Positions 26,566-37,460 of a stretch of DNA of 64,000 bases are shown here, one piece after another. The notes below the pieces were generated by a model, which had not been told where the DNA came from, searched no databases, and saw nothing but the letters and a program-made list of their open reading frames with translations. Source of the DNA: Thermoleptolyngbya sichuanensis A183 (GTDB lineage: Bacteria; Cyanobacteriota; Cyanobacteriia; Elainellales; Elainellaceae); assembly GCF_013177315.1 (NCBI RefSeq), contig NZ_CP053661.1, positions 5,084,001-5,148,000 of the forward strand, given 5' to 3'. The first letter of the stretch is position 1; each line of letters starts with the position of its first letter. The position numbers and the translations under genes are program-made.

Positions 26566-29292
26566 CTAGGGGATGATCGGGGCGTTGCAGCCCGCTGCAT
26601 CAGGGAACCCTAGCAGTTGCCCAACGGCAAAGCAGCGAAACGGATTTTGGGGCACAGGCGGATCGCCTGCCGCAATCCACACCTTGAGCCGCATCGGGTC
26701 ATAAATTGCCTGTCGCAACGCGCCATTGCCGCCGGGACTAGCATCGTCGTCAAACACATCAAACGGGCTGGCTTCCAGCGTGATGGGATGAGTGCGATCG
26801 CGCAAAATGTCTGCTACCACCGTCGGGTCGATTTCGCCATAGCGAGAACTGATACCATCTGGCTCCAAAAGCTGCCCCAAGCGCTGAAACCGGAGATCAC
26901 TCGAAAGGTCAATTGGCAGCGGCTGGCGCTCAAACATCTCCGGCAGGACGAAATGATTGGTCGCGTAAAGCACGCCGTTGTCTTGGAGGGGACGCACGCC
27001 CAAGTGCCGCCCCGTAAACTCGAATACGCCTGCTTCCCGCGACTTGCCATCAGTAATCATAATGATGTTGCCCCGCACGCGAGGCTGCGTTTCCATGAGG
27101 CTGCGGGCTTCGGCAAAGCTAGTGGCCGTTTTCAAGATTTGCCCCATAAGTTGCACATTGCTGCGCCCTTCCCGCGACAGTTCGGTGATATCCGCCGCGT
27201 GGGCCGTATCCAGGCCCAGCGAAATGCCTGCCACATTCACCCCAGAGTTTGGCCAGATTACACCGGGATAGGTGACAAACACATGGGGCAGGCCGTCAAG
27301 CGGCTGCCGGATAAACAGGATGGGGTTGTAGACGACGTAATCGACGGGTTTTTCGTTGTTATCGACGCTGCTGCCGTGGTAGAGATAGCCGTCTCTGGTT
27401 GCGGCGTTGGTTGCCACAAACTGGTTACAGCCTTCCCAAAACAGCTCTCGCGGCAGCGTGTAGCCGAGGATTTCTTGGAACACGTCCGCGTAGGACATCA
27501 TCATGCAAACGTCCATATCAATGCCGATATCGCTGGTCGCATCGGCCAATCCCCGGCATTCTTCTAGTAGCTCTGGGAAGGCTCGGTTTTTGGCCAGTCG
27601 CCCTAGCCCCAGCCCTACACCTGCCAGCCGAGCGATCCGCAGCGGCCGTTCGCCAATGCTGGCGATTTCATCATGCAGTAGGGTACCGTGCTGATAGCCC
27701 ATGTCGTAGGGGGTTCCTGCTAGCCAGACGATTTTGATTAAGCCGCGCTCTTCTCGGTGGGCGGGGACGGGCTGCCAATTGGCGGGCAGGAATTCAGCGA
27801 CTTTTTCGGGGGCGATCGCCACTTTAGGCGCGGGTGATCCTGGGGTTGCTATATTGCAATCGCAGACGGTTTCGGCGGCGGAGGCTTGCAGGTTTAGCAG
27901 CCACGATTCAAAGGCGATCGCCCCGTCGGCCGTTGAAGGTGCGCGATTGACCAACTGCCCCAAGCGAATTAGCCGCGACCCGTCTAGCACAATCTGTGAA
28001 GTCGGATAGCGTTGCAACAGTTCCAGCAGGGTGAACTGCCCGTCGCCCGCCGCAGACAGCACCAGCGTAGACCGCAGCGCCTGGATATTTGCCCGATTGG
28101 ATGGGGTTTGAATCACCTCGCCAATCTTAAATAGCGCGTATTCTCCCAATATGGAATTCAGATCTTCATCTAAGTTAACTGCGTTGGCTCTAATGGAGTC
28201 GTTCAAAGCCTCCCGAAACTGATCAGGCGCAATTTTGGCAATCCGTAGCATCGATCGCCATCCGGGTGAAAGGTAGCCCGTTTCGGCAAAGGTGGTCAGT
28301 TCGCCAATGCTGATAGACGGGCGCAGCGGGCCCAAGGCAATCACCAGTCGCCGATTGGCAAAGTCTGGCAGCGGGGGCACAGCCTGAGCGCTGGCGGTCT
28401 GTTTTGGGCTGGCGGTCTGTTTTGGGCTGGCGCTGGGGTCGGCAAGAATGCCTGTGTTTGCGATCAGGCGGTTTTTTGCGCTGGCGATCGCCCCCGTGAG
28501 AGCAGTGGTTTGAACAGACGACTCGATGGGGGGCGAGTGTATGGCAGGGGCGATCGCCGCAGCGGCTTCAGTCCACCCAGCCGCGGCCGTTTGAGCTTGG
28601 TCACCAGGCTGGACGTTGAGACGAGTGGCTTCAAGCGTTGCAGCGCAGTCGCACACCAACTCCGGCAGCAGCGTCTGCACCGTCCGCAGCACGGGCAGCA
28701 GCCGATTCACCACCAGTTCCACATCCGTATAGGCTTGCTCCAGTCGTCCCACTTCCAGCCGCACGGCAGGTTGGGGATACTGTTGCAGCAGTTCCAGCAC
28801 AGAAAACGTGCCGTCATCTCGGAGGGCGCGGCGAAGGGCCGTTTCCACCTCGTCGAGCCGCTCACTGCCGAGGGGATCGCCCACGGTTTTATTGATCTGG
28901 AGAAGGATAAATTGGCGCTCTGGCAGTGCGTCCAAATTGGGCAGGGCGATCGCCTGCGTCAGCCAGTGGTGCATTGCGTCTGGCTCAATCTCTGCGGCAA
29001 TCAACAATGCCTGGGTTGGTTCTGAAAGGGTTTTCTGCGCTGCAAAGGTCGCCAATTCGGCATAGGGAACTGAGAGCCGCTGATCCCGAAACTGAAGAAT
29101 CACCGTTTGGGCAGCGCTGACGCGATGAGCCATCAGCAGGTTGAGCAGCAGGCTCAGCAGCAGCCCCAAACCCAGTCCTACGCCTAGTTTTACAGACGGA
29201 CGATAAGGACGATGAAACATCTGCCGCAGTCGCAAGAACCGGGCGATCGCCCAATTTCGCAATCCTCGAACATCCCAAACGCCATGCCTCAT
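26566..29292 (-). CDS. DUF1400-DUF1400-C45 peptidase fusion protein
   Basis: The 908-residue protein starts at ATG 29292; the open frame extends to GTG 29340, which lies inside a transposable repeat and is unlikely. An N-terminal membrane anchor (L-G-V-G-L-G-L-G-L-L-L-S-L-L-L-N-L-L) is followed by two similar all-helical modules of DUF1400 type (about 60-200 and 315-450), each of the form L-x-x-x-A-x-x-G-x-x-S-x, separated by a Pro/Ala/Ser/Lys linker with a duplicated S-P-K-Q-T-A. The C-terminal half (about 530-890) is a C45 acyl-CoA:6-APA acyltransferase-type hydrolase: Y-D-M-G-Y-Q-H-G-T, then the nucleophile Cys622 in E-G-C-N-Q-F and A-T-R-D-G-Y-L-Y-H-G-S-S-V-D-N-N. The family self-cleaves before that cysteine and attacks amide bonds. 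An exported, membrane-tethered hydrolase is inferred; substrate unknown. Confidence 0.85.
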   Translation of the reverse strand: MRHGVWDVRGLRNWAIARFLRLRQMFHRPYRPSVKLGVGLGLGLLLSLLLNLLMAHRVSAAQTVILQFRDQRLSVPYAELATFAAQKTLSEPTQALLIAAEIEPDAMHHWLTQAIALPNLDALPERQFILLQINKTVGDPLGSERLDEVETALRRALRDDGTFSVLELLQQYPQPAVRLEVGRLEQAYTDVELVVNRLLPVLRTVQTLLPELVCDCAATLEATRLNVQPGDQAQTAAAGWTEAAAAIAPAIHSPPIESSVQTTALTGAIASAKNRLIANTGILADPSASPKQTASPKQTASAQAVPPLPDFANRRLVIALGPLRPSISIGELTTFAETGYLSPGWRSMLRIAKIAPDQFREALNDSIRANAVNLDEDLNSILGEYALFKIGEVIQTPSNRANIQALRSTLVLSAAGDGQFTLLELLQRYPTSQIVLDGSRLIRLGQLVNRAPSTADGAIAFESWLLNLQASAAETVCDCNIATPGSPAPKVAIAPEKVAEFLPANWQPVPAHREERGLIKIVWLAGTPYDMGYQHGTLLHDEIASIGERPLRIARLAGVGLGLGRLAKNRAFPELLEECRGLADATSDIGIDMDVCMMMSYADVFQEILGYTLPRELFWEGCNQFVATNAATRDGYLYHGSSVDNNEKPVDYVVYNPILFIRQPLDGLPHVFVTYPGVIWPNSGVNVAGISLGLDTAHAADITELSREGRSNVQLMGQILKTATSFAEARSLMETQPRVRGNIIMITDGKSREAGVFEFTGRHLGVRPLQDNGVLYATNHFVLPEMFERQPLPIDLSSDLRFQRLGQLLEPDGISSRYGEIDPTVVADILRDRTHPITLEASPFDVFDDDASPGGNGALRQAIYDPMRLKVWIAAGDPPVPQNPFRCFAVGQLLGFPDAAGCNAPIIP

Positions 29293-29334
29293 AGGTTTCT
29301 CAATCAACTCTGTTAAAAAAATCAACTCTGTTAA

Positions 29335-29433
29335 GGGCACCTCGAAAAATTCAGATCTTCTTGATAATAGCTACGAGAAAACGAGAGTTTCAGGCTCCCA
29401 AAATTCTCAATAAGGCAATTAATCGAGGCACCC
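29335..29433. mobile_element. 99-bp MITE-like element, copy B (inverted relative to copy A)
   Basis: The left end GGGCACCTCGA is intact; the right end reads TCGAGGCACCC with two changes. It is flanked by TTAA on both sides (29331-29334 and 29434-29437), a 4-bp target duplication. It matches copy A at 1829-1927 when reverse-complemented. It sits immediately upstream of the DUF1400-C45 gene and so forms part of that gene's promoter or leader region. Confidence 0.85.
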
Positions 29434-29934
29434 TTAAGAAATTCAAACACAAGCCTTTGAATTTGGAATTTGCAACCTGGAGCTAGTCAATTTTCAAGAA
29501 ATTCCTGGACTAAAAACTTCTAGCCTAAATTTCCAAACCGAAGACTCAAAACGGTCTAGCTCTACGAGAAAATACCCTTAGCGTCACTTCAAGCACACCC
29601 GTAGTGTAAATGAGATCGACAGTAAAGTATCGGGTATATCTAGCAAAGACACGTATCACCTTGTAAAATCCTACAAAATAGCGACATTAGCAAGCACTTA
29701 CCGAAAAAAGGCGCAGGACGGCTGATCGCCATCCATTTTTAAGCAGGGTTGAGTCATTCCTTCCGGTATCTCTTGACCCTGGCAGTATTTCATAGGCAAT
29801 ACATTGACGTGGTTATTACCGTTATTACCACTGAGTTTCCAATGGTTTACATGCTGGTGCGCCTTTATTTTGGTAGTGCTGCGATCGCATCTGGTGTTGA
29901 GGAAATTTGAGGAAATCTTTTGAGGAGTGAGTCC
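29434..29934. other. Divergent intergenic region, about 500 bp
   Basis: AT-rich leader between the C45 fusion gene and the duplicated barrel gene. No gene was accepted; a minus-strand frame at 29698-29964 overlaps the next start and has no family. Confidence 0.55.
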
Positions 29935-31374
29935 ATGAAATCCGATTTGCAATCTACCCGCCAATGGCAGTGCCTCTTGCTGTCGGGCAGCGTGTTGGTG
30001 TCTACGGTCATTGTCGGGGGACAGGCGGCCGTTGCTTCAGAAGCAATCGTTGCAGAAGCAGCGGCCGCAGAATCGATTGCCGCAGAATCAACGACCAAAT
30101 CTGGCTCAGTTCGCAGCACGATTCCCCCGCTTTCACCGATTCGCTCACTGAGTGTCGAACCTTTGCTTGTCGAACCACTGGAATCTGTCGAGGTGGCTCC
30201 CGAAGCAGCCGTTGCTCCCGAACCCGTCGTGGTTGTTCCAGACGCAGAGCCGGACTCTGAAAGCACCACAGGGCTAACTACAACACCCAGCATCGAGAGC
30301 GCTGAGGTTGGGTCAGATGAAGTCGAAGCCGCTGAAATCGAGATTCCGATGGGCACGGCCGCAGATCTAGAGCCAATGCCAACCAATCCGGCGATCGCCA
30401 ATACTGATACAGAGCTTGATCCAGACCTATCCGATCCCAGCTTCTCAGTTCCCGCCCCCATCGAAATTGCTCAAACAGGCCCTCGCGAAGTCCGCTATGT
30501 CTTCAGCTACATCGGCGTGGGGGTCAACTTGGGCATTGCGGGCGATGCCGCCATCGGCGACACCAGCTTTGCTGTCCTCAGCAAAATTGCCCTCAATCCC
30601 TACCTCTCCCTGCGTCCCAGCCTGCTGATCGAAGACGATGTGAGCATTCTCGTTCCTGTGACCTACGACTTTGGCATTGCCGGGCCAGGCACGGGCATTG
30701 CGCCATTTGCCGGCCTGGGCCTCACGTTTTCCACAGGCAATGACAACAACGTAGACTTCTTGCTGACAGGCGGGCTAGATTTTCCGATCAACAGTTCACT
30801 AGTGGCCACAGCATCAGCCAACCTTGCGCCCTTTGGCCGTGAAGTAGACTTTGGCATTCTGCTGGGTCTGGGCTACACCTTTAGCGCTCGTCGGGCGGTG
30901 GTGCGTCGTCCCACGATCGCCGATGTGCAGGATGCGGTCGGCGGCACGGCTGATACGCTTGGCCGCAGATCCCGCATCAACCCCAGCTTTATTGGCGCTG
31001 GGGCGAACCTGGGCATCGGCGGCGACTCTGCGCTGGGCAACACCAGCTTCGCCATCCTGAGCAAGTTTGCCCTGAACCGCACGCTGTCGATTCGCCCAGG
31101 TCTGCTGATCGAGGACGACGTAGAAGTGCTACTGCCTGTCACCTTTGACCTGGAGCCAATTCGGACGGGATACACAACGCTGGCTCCCTACGTTGGGGCA
31201 GGAATTGCCTTCTCCTTTGGCGATGACAGCGGGTTAGACCTGCTGCTGACGGGCGGTCTTGATATCCCCCTCACGGCTTTTCTGGCACTGACGACGGGCA
31301 TCAACGTCGGGCTGTTTGATAGCTTCGATGTGGGCGCAACGCTGGGTTTGGTTTATACATTCTCGCCTTACTAA
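29935..31374 (+). CDS. Outer-membrane-type protein with two tandem beta-barrel-like domains
   Basis: The protein (479 residues) has a signal peptide (L-L-L-S-G-S-V-L-V-S-T-V-I-V-G-G with a likely cut after A-V-A-S near residue 35). An acidic, Pro/Ser/Val-rich disordered region reaches to about 180. Two homologous blocks of roughly 130 residues follow, each beginning G-V/A-G-V/A-N-L-G-I-x-G-D, containing N-T/D-T-S-F-A-x-L-S-K and L-I-E-D-D-V, and ending in alternating hydrophobic strands with a final aromatic (G-L-G-Y-T-F and L-G-L-V-Y-T-F-S). Alternating strands with aromatic ends are the pattern of outer-membrane barrels. GAGGAG before ATG 29935 supports this start over a TTG at 29920. Function unknown; the internal duplication is clear. 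Confidence 0.8.
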   Translation: MKSDLQSTRQWQCLLLSGSVLVSTVIVGGQAAVASEAIVAEAAAAESIAAESTTKSGSVRSTIPPLSPIRSLSVEPLLVEPLESVEVAPEAAVAPEPVVVVPDAEPDSESTTGLTTTPSIESAEVGSDEVEAAEIEIPMGTAADLEPMPTNPAIANTDTELDPDLSDPSFSVPAPIEIAQTGPREVRYVFSYIGVGVNLGIAGDAAIGDTSFAVLSKIALNPYLSLRPSLLIEDDVSILVPVTYDFGIAGPGTGIAPFAGLGLTFSTGNDNNVDFLLTGGLDFPINSSLVATASANLAPFGREVDFGILLGLGYTFSARRAVVRRPTIADVQDAVGGTADTLGRRSRINPSFIGAGANLGIGGDSALGNTSFAILSKFALNRTLSIRPGLLIEDDVEVLLPVTFDLEPIRTGYTTLAPYVGAGIAFSFGDDSGLDLLLTGGLDIPLTAFLALTTGINVGLFDSFDVGATLGLVYTFSPY

Positions 31375-31636: not shown

Positions 31637-33766
31637 TCAGGCAAAGTAGGTAGCAACGGGCAGTGCGCCCAGGGTGGCGTGGCCCTCTGCGAGGGTTGCG
31701 GTCGTGAGGTTGACTACAAGGTCATCCTTGGCATTGAAGCTGGCAGTGCCGTTGTTGGCGGAGAGGTATAGCTCTTGCTTCCAGCGAAACATGACTGCTT
31801 CGTTTGCCTTGAGCGCCTGACGGCCGCCTCGCTTCTGATTTTTGTCGGCGTAGGCCAGCTTGACGGCATCTTCTAGGGTTTTTGCCCTAATGTTGCCTGC
31901 GTTGAACAGCGCTTTGGGGCGGTTCAGCGTGGTCAGGTTGTTGTCAAAGTCGAACACGAGGCGATCGCCCTCCAGCACATTCAAATCTAAAATGCGATCG
32001 GGCGCAGTGACCAGCGATTGCCTGAGCGCCTTGCCCTGCCGACCCGCGCTATAGACAAACCAGTCTGCTCCCGCGCCGCCGACCAGCGTATCGCCGCCTG
32101 CCCTACCCAGCAGGATGTCATTGCCGCCTTCGCCCCGCAACACGTCCGCACCCGCAGTGCCCAGCAGGATGTCGTCTGCCGCCGTGCCCGTGATTTCGGT
32201 GGGCGGGTTGACCACTGTGCCCGTTGCGCCAAACTCCACTGCGCCAATGTCGATTTTGCTGTCGCGGGTGCGGCCTAGCTTGTCTGTCGTGGGTGCGCCG
32301 GAGCTAACGCCTGCGTTAATCGCAGCGCTGCCCTCCAGAAGCGGATGAAACAGCAGAAAACCGTCACTCATCTGCTGCAAACCGCCCAGTTTCGGATCGG
32401 CAATGCGAATGCCAGAAAACACCAGATTGCTGCTGTTTGCACCGCCCGCAAAGGTGGAAAATTGCAGGTTGCCGCCGCCATTGGCAAACGTGCCGCTGCT
32501 CTGCTGCTGGATATTCCAGGTGTTGCCGCCGTTGGCTGCGGTGTTGTTGAAAAAGACAGTGTTTCGTAGCGTCGCAGTGCTGCCACCTGCCACCGAAACG
32601 CCGCCGCCGACCCAGCCTGCGGTATTGAGGGCAATCGTGGTGTTGACAATCGTGGCGTTGTTGTAGAGCGCCATGCCGCCGCCCACATTGCTCGGTCCGC
32701 GGCCAGTGACCGAGTTTCCAGAAAAGGTGCTGTTGGTAATCGTGGCAGGAGCCTTCATCGTCCAGATGCCGCCGCCCTGACCTGTGGCGCTGTTGCCGAC
32801 AAACGCCGTGTTGCTAATGGTCAGCCCCCGGTTCAGGTCGTTGCTCATGACCACGATCGCCCCGCCGTTGCCCCCGTTGCCCTGGGGCAGTGCCGTCACC
32901 GCGTTGTCTTTGAACAGGCTGCCCGTAATAGTGACGCTATCTTGCTTGCCTGTATAGAGGTAGGCCGCGCCGCCTTCGCCCTTGCCCTTGTTGCCCTCAA
33001 ACACGCTGTTGACAATGCGGATAAAGCCGGACGCTTCGCTGGTGGAACTGGCGCGGTCGGTGTAGATTGCGCCGCCAAAGCCCCGCAAAAACGGGTTGGG
33101 CTTGCCTGTGTCGTAAAAAGCAGCCGTCGTGCTGTTGTTGAGAAACTTGGAATTTTCGATGGTGAGCTTGCCGTTGAGGCTGTTGATCGCGCCACCGTTG
33201 ATGCCCTGGTTGTTGACAAACTCGCTGTTTCTTACCGTCAGCGGGCCGGGGCCCCAAAAGGCGATCGCCCCTGCCCCCCGTTCGTCATTGCCCGCCGTGG
33301 CCCGGTTGCCTGTGAACTTGCTGCCCGTCACCGTCAGGGAGCCTTCAAAGGCGCTGAACACCGCGCCGCCGCCCTTGTTGGCGACATTGTTGGTGAAAAC
33401 AACGTTTTCCAGCGTTAGCTTGCCCTGGTGTTCCGTGGCGATCGCCCCGCCGCGCTCGGTGGTGAAGCCGTTGATCAGCGTCAGATTTTTCACCGACAGG
33501 CTGGTGGGCTGCACCGAGGTCGATTGCAGGTTAAAAATGCGCGACTTGTTGTTGCCGCTAATTTTTAGCCCCGGCGCAGTGCTGCCGTCGATAGTTAGAT
33601 TTTTGCCTGCGGGAATATTGATCTGGCCGCTGGTGAGGGTAATGGTTTGCCCGGCCAGGCTGCTGGCAAAGCGAATCGTGCTGCCGCTGGTGGCTTGGGC
33701 GATCGCCGCCCGCAATGATCCAGCACCGCTGTCGGCGGTCGTCGTCACCGTAATGATTGTGGACAT
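31637..33766 (-). CDS. Parallel beta-helix / RTX exoprotein, paralogue 1
   Basis: The protein has 709 residues. It begins M-S-T-I-I-T-V-T-T-T-A-D-S-G-A-G-S-L-R-A with no signal peptide. A long right-handed beta-helix of the polymorphic outer membrane protein type follows, with repeats such as G-G-A-I, F-x-x-N and N-x-x-x-G-x-G-G-A (about 95-420). It ends in the choice-of-anchor-Q-like K-I-D-I-G-A-V-E-F (near 510), then three or four G-G-x-G-x-D-x-L calcium-binding RTX nonapeptides (about 530-570) and a tail ending in T-L-A-E-G-H-A-T. RTX repeats without a signal peptide point to type I secretion. The function is probably surface or extracellular adhesion; no catalytic motif was seen. Confidence 0.85.
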   Translation of the reverse strand: MSTIITVTTTADSGAGSLRAAIAQATSGSTIRFASSLAGQTITLTSGQINIPAGKNLTIDGSTAPGLKISGNNKSRIFNLQSTSVQPTSLSVKNLTLINGFTTERGGAIATEHQGKLTLENVVFTNNVANKGGGAVFSAFEGSLTVTGSKFTGNRATAGNDERGAGAIAFWGPGPLTVRNSEFVNNQGINGGAINSLNGKLTIENSKFLNNSTTAAFYDTGKPNPFLRGFGGAIYTDRASSTSEASGFIRIVNSVFEGNKGKGEGGAAYLYTGKQDSVTITGSLFKDNAVTALPQGNGGNGGAIVVMSNDLNRGLTISNTAFVGNSATGQGGGIWTMKAPATITNSTFSGNSVTGRGPSNVGGGMALYNNATIVNTTIALNTAGWVGGGVSVAGGSTATLRNTVFFNNTAANGGNTWNIQQQSSGTFANGGGNLQFSTFAGGANSSNLVFSGIRIADPKLGGLQQMSDGFLLFHPLLEGSAAINAGVSSGAPTTDKLGRTRDSKIDIGAVEFGATGTVVNPPTEITGTAADDILLGTAGADVLRGEGGNDILLGRAGGDTLVGGAGADWFVYSAGRQGKALRQSLVTAPDRILDLNVLEGDRLVFDFDNNLTTLNRPKALFNAGNIRAKTLEDAVKLAYADKNQKRGGRQALKANEAVMFRWKQELYLSANNGTASFNAKDDLVVNLTTATLAEGHATLGALPVATYFA

Positions 33767-34047: not shown

Positions 34048-36126
34048 CTAAGTGAAAACTGTCTGCACAGGCAGCACGCCCGCCCGCTGCTGGCGCGGCG
34101 ACAGCGCAATCCCCGTCACGTCGATCACGCCATCCTGGGCCGCACTAAAGCCAGCACCCTCTGCGTTGATCGAGAGCAGCGTGCGACTGCCCCAGGAAAA
34201 CAGCACCGCTTCACCAATCGCTAGGACTTGCTTGCCTGCCTGCTGCTGGTTTTTGTCGGCGTAGGCAGCGGCGATCGCCCCCCTCAGGGTGCTGCCCTGC
34301 ACGGTTCCCGCATGGAACAAACCCTTGGGCAACACTGATTCGCCGTTGACTTCGATCAGGAGGCGATCGCCCTGAGCAGGGTTGAAATCCGTGATGCGAT
34401 CCAGGCTCGACAGCCGCGAGTGAGCCAGAGCCGATTTCAGCGTTGCGCCAACGTAGACAAACGTATCCGCCCCCGCGCCGCCCGTCAGCGTGTCGCTGCC
34501 TGCGCCGCCCCACAGCAGATCGTTGCCGCCACTGCCCAACAGCGTGTCGCCACCCGTGCTGCCCACCAGCCAGTCATCCCCGGCGCTGCCTTCCCACCGC
34601 AGCCCCCGCCCAAACTCGACCGCGCCGACATCAGGCTGAGCATCCCGGCTCAGCCCCCGCTGGTCTATCGGAGGTGCGCCTGCGCCCGTTCCTGTGTTGA
34701 TGGCGGGGCTGCCGGCTAGCAGCGCATGGGTCTGCCCCAATCCGCCGTTTGCCTGGAGTGGATCGAGCTTGGGGTCGATGATGCGAGAGTTAGCCACAAC
34801 GCGCGGATCATCTTTACTTTGCAGCCCTGGAAATTCGATATTGCCGCCACCGTCAATGAGCGGTCTGCGCGTTTGAACGCGAGTCTTCCAGGGATTGCTA
34901 GCAGTATTGAACGCAACGATGGAGTTTTTGAGCGTAATTGACTGGTCGCCCATCCAAAACGCGCCGCCCTGGAATCCGGCGTGATTGTAGGCAACGGTGA
35001 CATTGGTCAGCGTTGCAGCAGACGTGGTACGGTTGCCAAAGGTGATTGCGCCGCCCAGCCCGCCGCCGTTGCCATCGTCGGCCCGGTTGCCCGAAAACGT
35101 TGTGTTCACGATAGTAGTCGGCGACGATTCGCCAATCCACAATCCGCCGCCCTGCCCCTGAGCCGTGTTGTTGGCCAGCGTGCTGTTCCGCAGGGTCAGT
35201 TCGGCATTGCCGTGGCGCAGCCCGCCGCCCAGCGCCTCACCGTCAGCGCCGCGAATCACAGTATTGCCGACGATCGCACAGTTTTCAATCAGCACCTTGT
35301 CGGGCGGATAGGCAAAGAGAAACAGCCCGCCGCCCTGGGCCGCACCGCGATTGTTTTCAAAGCGGCTGTTGCGGAGGGTGATTTGGCCGCCAATGGGGCC
35401 ATAGCTGCTGTTGGGGCCCGATGCATTGGCTCCGTCGGTGTAGATTGCGCCGCCGTAGCCGCTCACCCCCCGTTGAGACGCGCCTGGCGTGGAGTCGTTG
35501 CCACGAAAGATCGAATTCTCAACCGTTAGCTCACCCAGCAGGCTATTGATTGCGCCGCCGTTGATGCCGCGATTGCGGAGGAATCGGCTATTGCGGACGG
35601 TCAGCACGCCGCCGCTCTTGGTGCCGATCGCTCCTCCGCCTCGTTCGTTTTGGGCAAGCGTGCCGTCATTGGCGATGAACGTGCTGCCCTGCACGAGCGT
35701 CCGCCCGCGAAATCCGGTGTAGATTGCCCCACCAAACCCAGCCGCGTTTTCCTGGAAACGGCACCGGATCACCGTCAGCTCGCTGCTGTTTCCGGTCAAG
35801 ATTGCGCCGCCGCCGCCCGACTGTTCGGTGTTGCCCGTGACCCGCCCGTGTCTCAGGGTCAGCTCCCGTAGGGTCACTTTGGCATTGTCCCCAACTTGCA
35901 GAATGCGGCTGCTGCGGTTGCCGCTGAGGGTGATGCCGGGGGCGGTCGAGCCGTCTATCGTAATTGAGCGGTTGAGGGTGAGTTGGCCACTGGTCAGGGT
36001 GATGGTCTTTCCCTGGAGGCTGGCGGCAAAGCGGATGGTGGCTCCGTTGGTGGCTTGGGCGATCGCCGCCCGCAAAGATCCTGCACCGCTGTCAGCGGTC
36101 GTTGTCACCGTGATGATTGTAGACAT
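34048..36126 (-). CDS. Parallel beta-helix / RTX exoprotein, paralogue 2
   Basis: This 692-residue paralogue of the neighbouring protein has the same first 26 residues. ATG 36126 is preferred to the longer frame because it matches the paralogue start and follows AAAGGAAA. It shares the beta-helix repeats (G-G-A-I, R-N-S-x-F, N-N-x-x), the D-V-G-A-V-E-F motif and RTX nonapeptides (L-L-G-S-G-G-N-D-L-L, G-G-A-G-S-D-T-L-T-G), plus a similar tail with A-Y-A-D-K-N-Q. The two genes are separated by about 280 bp and arose by tandem duplication, after which the helix region diverged much more than the ends. Type I secretion is inferred from RTX repeats without a signal peptide. Confidence 0.85.
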   Translation of the reverse strand: MSTIITVTTTADSGAGSLRAAIAQATNGATIRFAASLQGKTITLTSGQLTLNRSITIDGSTAPGITLSGNRSSRILQVGDNAKVTLRELTLRHGRVTGNTEQSGGGGAILTGNSSELTVIRCRFQENAAGFGGAIYTGFRGRTLVQGSTFIANDGTLAQNERGGGAIGTKSGGVLTVRNSRFLRNRGINGGAINSLLGELTVENSIFRGNDSTPGASQRGVSGYGGAIYTDGANASGPNSSYGPIGGQITLRNSRFENNRGAAQGGGLFLFAYPPDKVLIENCAIVGNTVIRGADGEALGGGLRHGNAELTLRNSTLANNTAQGQGGGLWIGESSPTTIVNTTFSGNRADDGNGGGLGGAITFGNRTTSAATLTNVTVAYNHAGFQGGAFWMGDQSITLKNSIVAFNTASNPWKTRVQTRRPLIDGGGNIEFPGLQSKDDPRVVANSRIIDPKLDPLQANGGLGQTHALLAGSPAINTGTGAGAPPIDQRGLSRDAQPDVGAVEFGRGLRWEGSAGDDWLVGSTGGDTLLGSGGNDLLWGGAGSDTLTGGAGADTFVYVGATLKSALAHSRLSSLDRITDFNPAQGDRLLIEVNGESVLPKGLFHAGTVQGSTLRGAIAAAYADKNQQQAGKQVLAIGEAVLFSWGSRTLLSINAEGAGFSAAQDGVIDVTGIALSPRQQRAGVLPVQTVFT

Positions 36127-37460
36127 GAATGTTTCCTTTCTGATGGTTAGCTGGAAAGGGTGCAACCAGAGGTTGACACGCTAGAAATCGTCCTGAGGAA
36201 CGCTAAAGCAAACGCTCAGCAGATGAATTCATAAGTGTTTATGGAAGCTAATCAGCCGAAACGGAATACGCGAAAAGGGCAAAAAAGGGGGGCAAAACGG
36301 ACGCAATGATGCAGGCTGTAATTCACCTTACTAGAACGTCAATGCTCATCTAGAAGACGGTCAATTTACTTGCTTTATATTCTCTCCAATGAAGGAAGAC
36401 TTGCATTAACGCCGAACCTTTTTACCCCTGACACAGGGATGGCAAAATCATCGCTTTTGCAAACAAAAAAAGAAACATTTCTCATTCCAGATTAGGTTCT
36501 TTCGATTGCAGGAAATCAAGTTGCATCAAGTCAGGTTTTAGAACGTAATTGGGTTAATTGAGTAGACGCAAAGTGCAGGATTTTGTTCACGATAAAACGA
36601 GATGGCGAGGGCGCATCCTAGTTCTGCAAGTTTGCCCTCATCCCCCAGCCCCTTCTCCCAAAAAGGGAGAAGGAGAGCCGGATTGGCAGTCCCTTCCCCA
36701 AAGCGGGAGAGGGATTTAGGGTGAGGGTTCCAAAAGTGGGATGCACTCGATGGCGATCGCCCCGTCCAACTCAATCAAGATCCTGCAAAAATTACCGTGA
36801 AAATACTGAGACGGGAATTCTGGATGAAGCCATAGACGCAGAGTAATGGTTCAAGAACTCACGATTAAACGGTAATTCTTGACTGCTCGAAATATGAAAT
36901 AGGATACGAACTTCGTCTTGTTTTACGATGCAAGAAGTATTCAAGAAACGAGTCAAAAAGCACCCAAAAGTCTGGACTAGGGGATAAGGAAGACGAGTAG
37001 ACTGCGTAAATAACACCCCAAGAAATATCTAAGAAATGCAGTCTAGAGCGGACAGCAGAGAAGTCCAGTGAGCGATCTTTCAGAAACCCTGATTAAAAGA
37101 ATGGGTGGAAGATCCTGACAGAGAAAATGGCTACGAACATGACCAGATCTGCTAGAACGAGGCACCCGATCTGATTCCACGCTTTCATTAATAGCCCACA
37201 CCATGCATAAAACATTCCGTGAAACCGCTGAAAATGTTTATTTTTCAGCATTGTTAATTGCCACCTGCACTTCTGCGACCACTGTTGTCAGCCACTTCGT
37301 CAATTACTCCGGATGTGGCACACACCGCAGCACATCTTGACGCTGGAGCGGTTACTGATAAGCAGCAACCTCCAAAGTTAACGTTTTCTATCGACCTGAG
37401 TAAATTAGGCCCGTCGCGCTGAAAGGTAAGTTATCCCCCTTCGCATGAGGAGCCGTTTCT
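36127..37460. other. Long non-coding region, about 1.3 kb
   Basis: No gene accepted. Short minus-strand frames (36538-36774 and 36792-37016) have no family resemblance; the first is made mainly of a known type of palindromic repeat (36635-36740). The rest is AT-rich with no strong hairpin. It holds the promoter of the beta-helix gene and that of the zinc-ribbon gene at 37461. Confidence 0.6.
36635..36740. repeat. Cyanobacterial palindromic repeat (CTTCTCCC/GGGAGAAG type)
   Basis: CCCTCATCCCCCAGCC is followed by the perfect hairpin CTTCTCCC-aaaaa-GGGAGAAG, a second half with CCCCAAAGCGGGAGAGGG, and ends near GGTGAGGG. This layout is a common repeat in cyanobacterial intergenic DNA. Confidence 0.75.

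Follow-up and report, generated by a model that had tools for sequence, protein, structure and literature searches.

A C45-family Ntn-hydrolase fused to two distinct DUF1400 modules in a cyanobacterium

Introduction

The C45-family Ntn-hydrolase isopenicillin N acyltransferase (IAT, PDB 2x1c/2x1d) carries its nucleophilic Cys directly after a Gly, and in its mature form keeps both the alpha and the beta piece. NAAA and acid ceramidase, Ntn amidases that act on lipid amides, have the same fold, and their mature chain likewise starts at the nucleophile. In cyanobacteria, a different set of exported enzymes combines an export signal, a single DUF1400 module and an alpha/beta hydrolase, in that order; DUF1400 also occurs as two stand-alone tandem genes, here called A and B, with no attached hydrolase. 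The Pfam description labels DUF1400 itself as an alpha/beta hydrolase.

Here we describe a gene that brings these systems together, found in a 64,000-nucleotide stretch of the Thermoleptolyngbya sichuanensis A183 genome (the window). Its product shares the Ntn fold and the Cys after Gly with IAT, but, unlike IAT, it starts with an export signal followed by two DUF1400 modules, and its identity to IAT is only about 21%. The order of its parts is that of the DUF1400-alpha/beta hydrolases, although these have an unrelated catalytic fold and one DUF1400 module, and in contrast to the two stand-alone A and B genes, it carries the pair joined. The accessible text of the literature that names DUF1400 does not describe a DUF1400-C45 pairing, and no title on this C45 clade was found in the literature on C45 or IAT in cyanobacteria.

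Results

The fused gene lies at 26566-29292 (-) of the window as a single ORF of 908 codons with an ATG start at 29292. The same frame is open over 26566-29340 (-), where an in-frame GTG start at 29340 gives an alternative product of 924 aa; residue numbers used here are those of the 908-aa form, whose Cys622 is residue 638 of the 924-aa form. Profiles and the sequence give a domain order of export signal, DUF1400-A, DUF1400-B and C45 Ntn-hydrolase, with the following features:

29113..29292 (-), N-terminal region with a candidate export signal, residues 1-60 (hydropathy scan and sequence)
28645..29112 (-), DUF1400 module 1 (A type), residues 61-216, with C214-D-C216 at its end (Pfam, tree, helix and strand content)
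28366..28644 (-), inter-module linker, residues 217-309 (model, mostly of low confidence)
27856..28365 (-), DUF1400 module 2 (B type), residues 310-479, with C477-D-C479 at its end (Pfam, tree, model)
27772..27855 (-), linker, residues 480-507, at the position of the C45 signal peptide in split relatives (comparison with these relatives)
27430..27771 (-), predicted C45 alpha segment, residues 508-621, with a conserved GTPYxMGxQ motif (alignment, model)
27427..27429 (-), codon of the nucleophile Cys622, with predicted autocleavage between Gly621 and Cys622 (alignment, mature Ntn chains)
26569..27429 (-), predicted C45 beta segment, residues 622-908 (alignment)

In the candidate export signal, a hydrophobic stretch (residues 36-50) is followed by AHRVSA and then AQ, an A-x-A-type site seen in the hydropathy scan and the sequence. 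The full-length model has a pLDDT of 83.7 and a pTM of 0.78, with a pLDDT below 50 for linker residues 232-303, and module 2 modelled alone reached a pLDDT of 90.9.

The original prediction, that two DUF1400 modules are fused to a C45 enzyme, held up in a domain search. PF07176 (DUF1400) aligned to the whole protein in two stretches (E 1e-41; 142.7 bits, cut-off 23.4), and the modules scored singly reached 107.3 and 46.3 bits, each above that cut-off, which removes the concern that they might not match DUF1400. Both enzyme profiles passed their curated cut-offs: NF040521 (C45_proenzyme, NCBIfam) reached 123 bits where 85 are required, over residues 542-886 in the 924-aa numbering, and AAT (PF03417; E 7.5e-7) reached 29.5 bits where 23.2 are required. 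The C45 part of the predicted model has the Ntn-hydrolase fold, superposing on IAT 2x1c with Z 37.5 and an rmsd of 2.4 over 329 residues, and IAT is also a sequence-profile match to this part (E 4.5e-15). The acid ceramidase and NAAA precursors align to the modelled C45 part with Z about 30, but give no confident profile match to it (E 0.29 or worse).

Cys622, proposed from the outset as the C45 nucleophile, is invariant together with D644 in all 27 C45 homologues aligned, as are G621, C622 and D644 in 18/18 cyanobacterial members. In structural alignment, mature Ntn chains of other families (the NAAA beta chain, bile salt hydrolase and penicillin V acylase) begin at model residue 622, so that Cys622 is the predicted nucleophile. 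Within the beta segment, D644, N779, H780 and R831 are invariant in the alignment, with Asp644 at the position of Asp121 of IAT. Judged from sequence and model, the gene most likely specifies an N-acyl amidohydrolase or acyltransferase that is exported and belongs to the isopenicillin N acyltransferase-like C45 family.

A cut before Cys622 had been expected to release the N-terminal half, and a DUF1400 fragment freed in this way could act independently. Such a release would agree with the cleavage site predicted after Gly621 and with the existence of DUF1400 proteins on their own; however, mature IAT 2x1d aligns to model residues 519-897, which places residues ~510-621 within the Ntn fold, aligned together with the beta part, and both pieces stay in mature IAT. 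The alpha piece should thus stay bound, and we regard release of the N-terminal half as very doubtful.

On a tree, the cyanobacterial C45s as a whole form one clade (100/100), which is marked by extra cysteines: C887 is present in 17/18 and C902 in 18/18 of the members aligned, and neither occurs in any of the nine aligned outgroup sequences. These outgroup enzymes, non-cyanobacterial and mostly from Myxococcota, carry a lipobox-like Cys shortly after their hydrophobic stretch (4/8 in the strict pattern), and the flanks fetched around the non-cyanobacterial C45 relatives showed no DUF1400. The cyanobacterial proteins have A-x-A-type ends and DUF1400 instead, which hints that the task of holding the enzyme may have passed to DUF1400.

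The two modules are of different kinds. In a tree of 71 DUF1400 modules, built on domains of 135-177 residues, module 1 groups with stand-alone gene A (99/95) and module 2 with stand-alone gene B (97/91), so the partner of the C45 enzyme is a joined A-B pair; this grouping rules out a simple or recent internal duplication of one DUF1400. The hydrolase-linked DUF1400s form a separate clade (98/99) without the C-x-C tail. Among the C45-linked modules, all those read at sequence level end in such a tail (the double DUF1400 labelled L182 was scored by profile, and its tails lie outside this set), as do most stand-alone A and B proteins, with C-E-P in its place in three related ones. The view that the protein carries two copies of a module usually found ahead of alpha/beta hydrolases was therefore right about the number but not about the kind: A and B are distinct paralogues, neither of the hydrolase-linked type. 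Stand-alone DUF1400 is moreover nearly as common as hydrolase-sized fusions, since the 138 DUF1400 matches in 39 genomes sampled from the cyanobacterial class include 58 in frames of at most 360 aa and 66 in frames of hydrolase size (481-760 aa). DUF1400 was present in 38 of these 39 genomes.

The modelled DUF1400 module (177 residues) is mostly helical with few short strands, and no solved structure resembles it (best Foldseek E 0.77, best VIA-align Z 2.2, best profile-search E 0.57), a missing match that does not make DUF1400 a new fold. DUF1400 itself lacks the catalytic domain with a central eight-stranded sheet that defines an alpha/beta hydrolase, as its model is helical and it precedes three unrelated enzyme folds. 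DUF1400 was also removed in PMC11878206, as a domain ahead of the actual hydrolase.

That DUF1400 is a general partner of hydrolases, as the original prediction had it, found support in a survey of its fusion partners, which are PAF-AH/PETase-like alpha/beta hydrolases, GDSL acylhydrolases and C45 enzymes. The window's genome encodes five alpha/beta hydrolases preceded by DUF1400, of which two carry SBP_bac_3 at the C-terminus, and in two other genomes DUF1400 and a following GDSL acylhydrolase form a single protein (L168:2161-3282 (+) and L170:2129-3268 (+)). This wider use, together with the helical model without a solved match, fits an accessory, non-catalytic module, and suggests that DUF1400 serves several unrelated secreted hydrolases rather than being a hydrolase itself.

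A scan of GTDB contigs for the C45 domain with two peptide patterns, together with whole-genome searches, yielded 22 C45 genes of the cyanobacterial type from 19 genomes, window included; both figures are subject to the draft state of genomes and to the recall of the pattern search. Eight genomes carry the fusion to two DUF1400 modules: the window and those labelled L086, L087, L088, L089, L090, L091 and L178, where the L090 gene is cut by a contig that begins inside module 2, and L178 belongs to a different genus within the family of the window's organism. L174 adds a ninth case, in which a draft genome has the same fusion split over two frames. In eight further genomes a separate C45 gene adjoins a DUF1400 gene, which is double in seven of them; the neighbour lies upstream in L076 (26 bp gap), divergently in L092 and downstream in L093, L094, L095, L096, L097 and L100. 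The neighbour in L096 carries module 1 only, and a search of that genome found no double DUF1400.

Unlinked C45 genes are accompanied by an unlinked double DUF1400 in the same genome in four cases (C45/DUF1400: L098/L172, L109/L173, L180/L175 and L181/L182), L180 and L181 being second C45 copies. For L099, no double DUF1400 was found in the draft genome, and the contig ends 258 bases past the C45 gene. Altogether, a double-DUF1400 counterpart exists for 20/22 C45 genes, a single module for one, and none was found for one. Conversely, among the top matches listed for 386 genomes, a double DUF1400 in a single frame is confined to G000 and G366, which are also the two cyanobacterial genomes of that sample with this C45 clade. 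Outside this sample, G403 encodes a divergent DUF1400-like protein of two modules that lacks C-x-C tails (L179:1810-2958 (-)), with no C45 gene in the stretch fetched.

A sequencing or assembly error that joined two genes could be imagined from the separate neighbours in relatives, as in G366 with its 26 bp gap. Fused orthologues in independent genomes rule this out: the same fusion is present in eight genomes, and its junction lacks the C45 signal peptide of the split relatives, so that more than a stop codon was lost. The chance of such an artefact is therefore negligible. The fused C45 domains form one clade (100/100) comprising the seven on the tree; L178 is not among them and, like L174, L180 and L181, was assigned by profile score outside the tree. 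Among these seven fused genes, the fusion seems, from the sequences, to have arisen once.

Hydrophobic N-termini with A-x-A-like end sites are found on split partners of both kinds, C45 and DUF1400, which are thus predicted to reach the same compartment. No third gene is conserved around the pair across loci; the neighbours in the window (a CHASE4 histidine kinase, DUF4090, Tmemb_14, a holin-like protein and RTX/beta-helix proteins) are not common to the other loci. This lack of further conserved neighbours, like the apparent single origin of the fusion, would be expected if fusion and adjacency were passive genome architecture with no functional meaning. However, both partners stay together in four arrangements (fused, upstream, divergent and downstream), and some genomes encode an unlinked double DUF1400 as well as an unlinked C45 copy, which makes a purely passive association improbable.

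Discussion

We propose, with a probability of roughly 55%, that the gene encodes an exported C45 amidase or acyltransferase joined to a dedicated, non-catalytic DUF1400 A-B partner, that the chain cuts itself before Cys622 with the pieces staying together, and that the A-B pair tethers the enzyme to the envelope or presents its substrate. The computed part of this proposal is the domain order, the Ntn fold, the nucleophile, the A/B identity of the modules, the single origin of the fusion (seven on the tree) and the recurrent linkage of the partners when they are separate. Following export of the chain, self-cleavage before Cys622 would take place, and the alpha piece would keep the DUF1400 pair attached to the catalytic beta piece, as the two pieces remain together in mature IAT. 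The A-B pair might then hold the enzyme at the cell envelope, a plausible role for DUF1400, or present an acylated envelope or secreted substrate; the same adaptor role would be possible for DUF1400 on alpha/beta and GDSL acylhydrolases. That no double DUF1400 was found for L096 and L099 speaks against this proposal.

The main rival is that DUF1400 acts as an intramolecular or steric chaperone, or as an inhibitory pro-region, for exported hydrolases, which would assist folding or hold the enzyme inactive up to its arrival, with no need for envelope binding. In the alpha/beta, GDSL and C45 fusions, DUF1400 comes directly after the signal, which is the usual place of pro-regions, and separately encoded DUF1400 partners would fit a stand-alone foldase. 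Yet stand-alone A-B pairs and single DUF1400 proteins commonly occur with no hydrolase linked to them, and it is hard to see what the conserved C-x-C tails would do in a pro-region that is discarded. The DUF1400 model, lacking a solved-fold match, does not favour tethering over chaperoning. We consider the chaperone or pro-region account possible, though not probable.

A tentative extension of the tethering or presenting role is that DUF1400 is a general cyanobacterial docking module, through which alpha/beta, GDSL and Ntn acyl hydrolases might reach the same envelope site or substrate; stand-alone A-B proteins could then form a shared scaffold, with the C-x-C tails and C887/C902 as the joint. 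With three unrelated acyl-hydrolase folds that carry DUF1400, and an A-B pair matched to one C45 clade, an uncharacterised domain becomes a testable partner; this domain, near-universal in the cyanobacterial class sampled, is described in Pfam as an alpha/beta hydrolase.

Several minor observations were made alongside. DUF1400, an alpha/beta hydrolase and SBP_bac_3 are combined in one protein at L010:2316-5111 (-), L012:2703-5216 (-), L166:771-3407 (-) and L167:2989-5532 (+). A 1291-aa AsmA/TamB-like protein with a C-terminal DUF1400 (L095:8677-12552 (-)) is convergent with a C45/double-DUF1400 pair; it is a single example from a draft genome and may be a chimera. In the window, the divergent neighbour of the fused gene (29920-31374 (+)) encodes two similar halves of beta-barrel appearance without a Pfam match, and is followed by two adjoining RTX calcium-binding proteins (31637-33766 (-) and 34048-36165 (-)) with beta-helix or PMP-type repeats.
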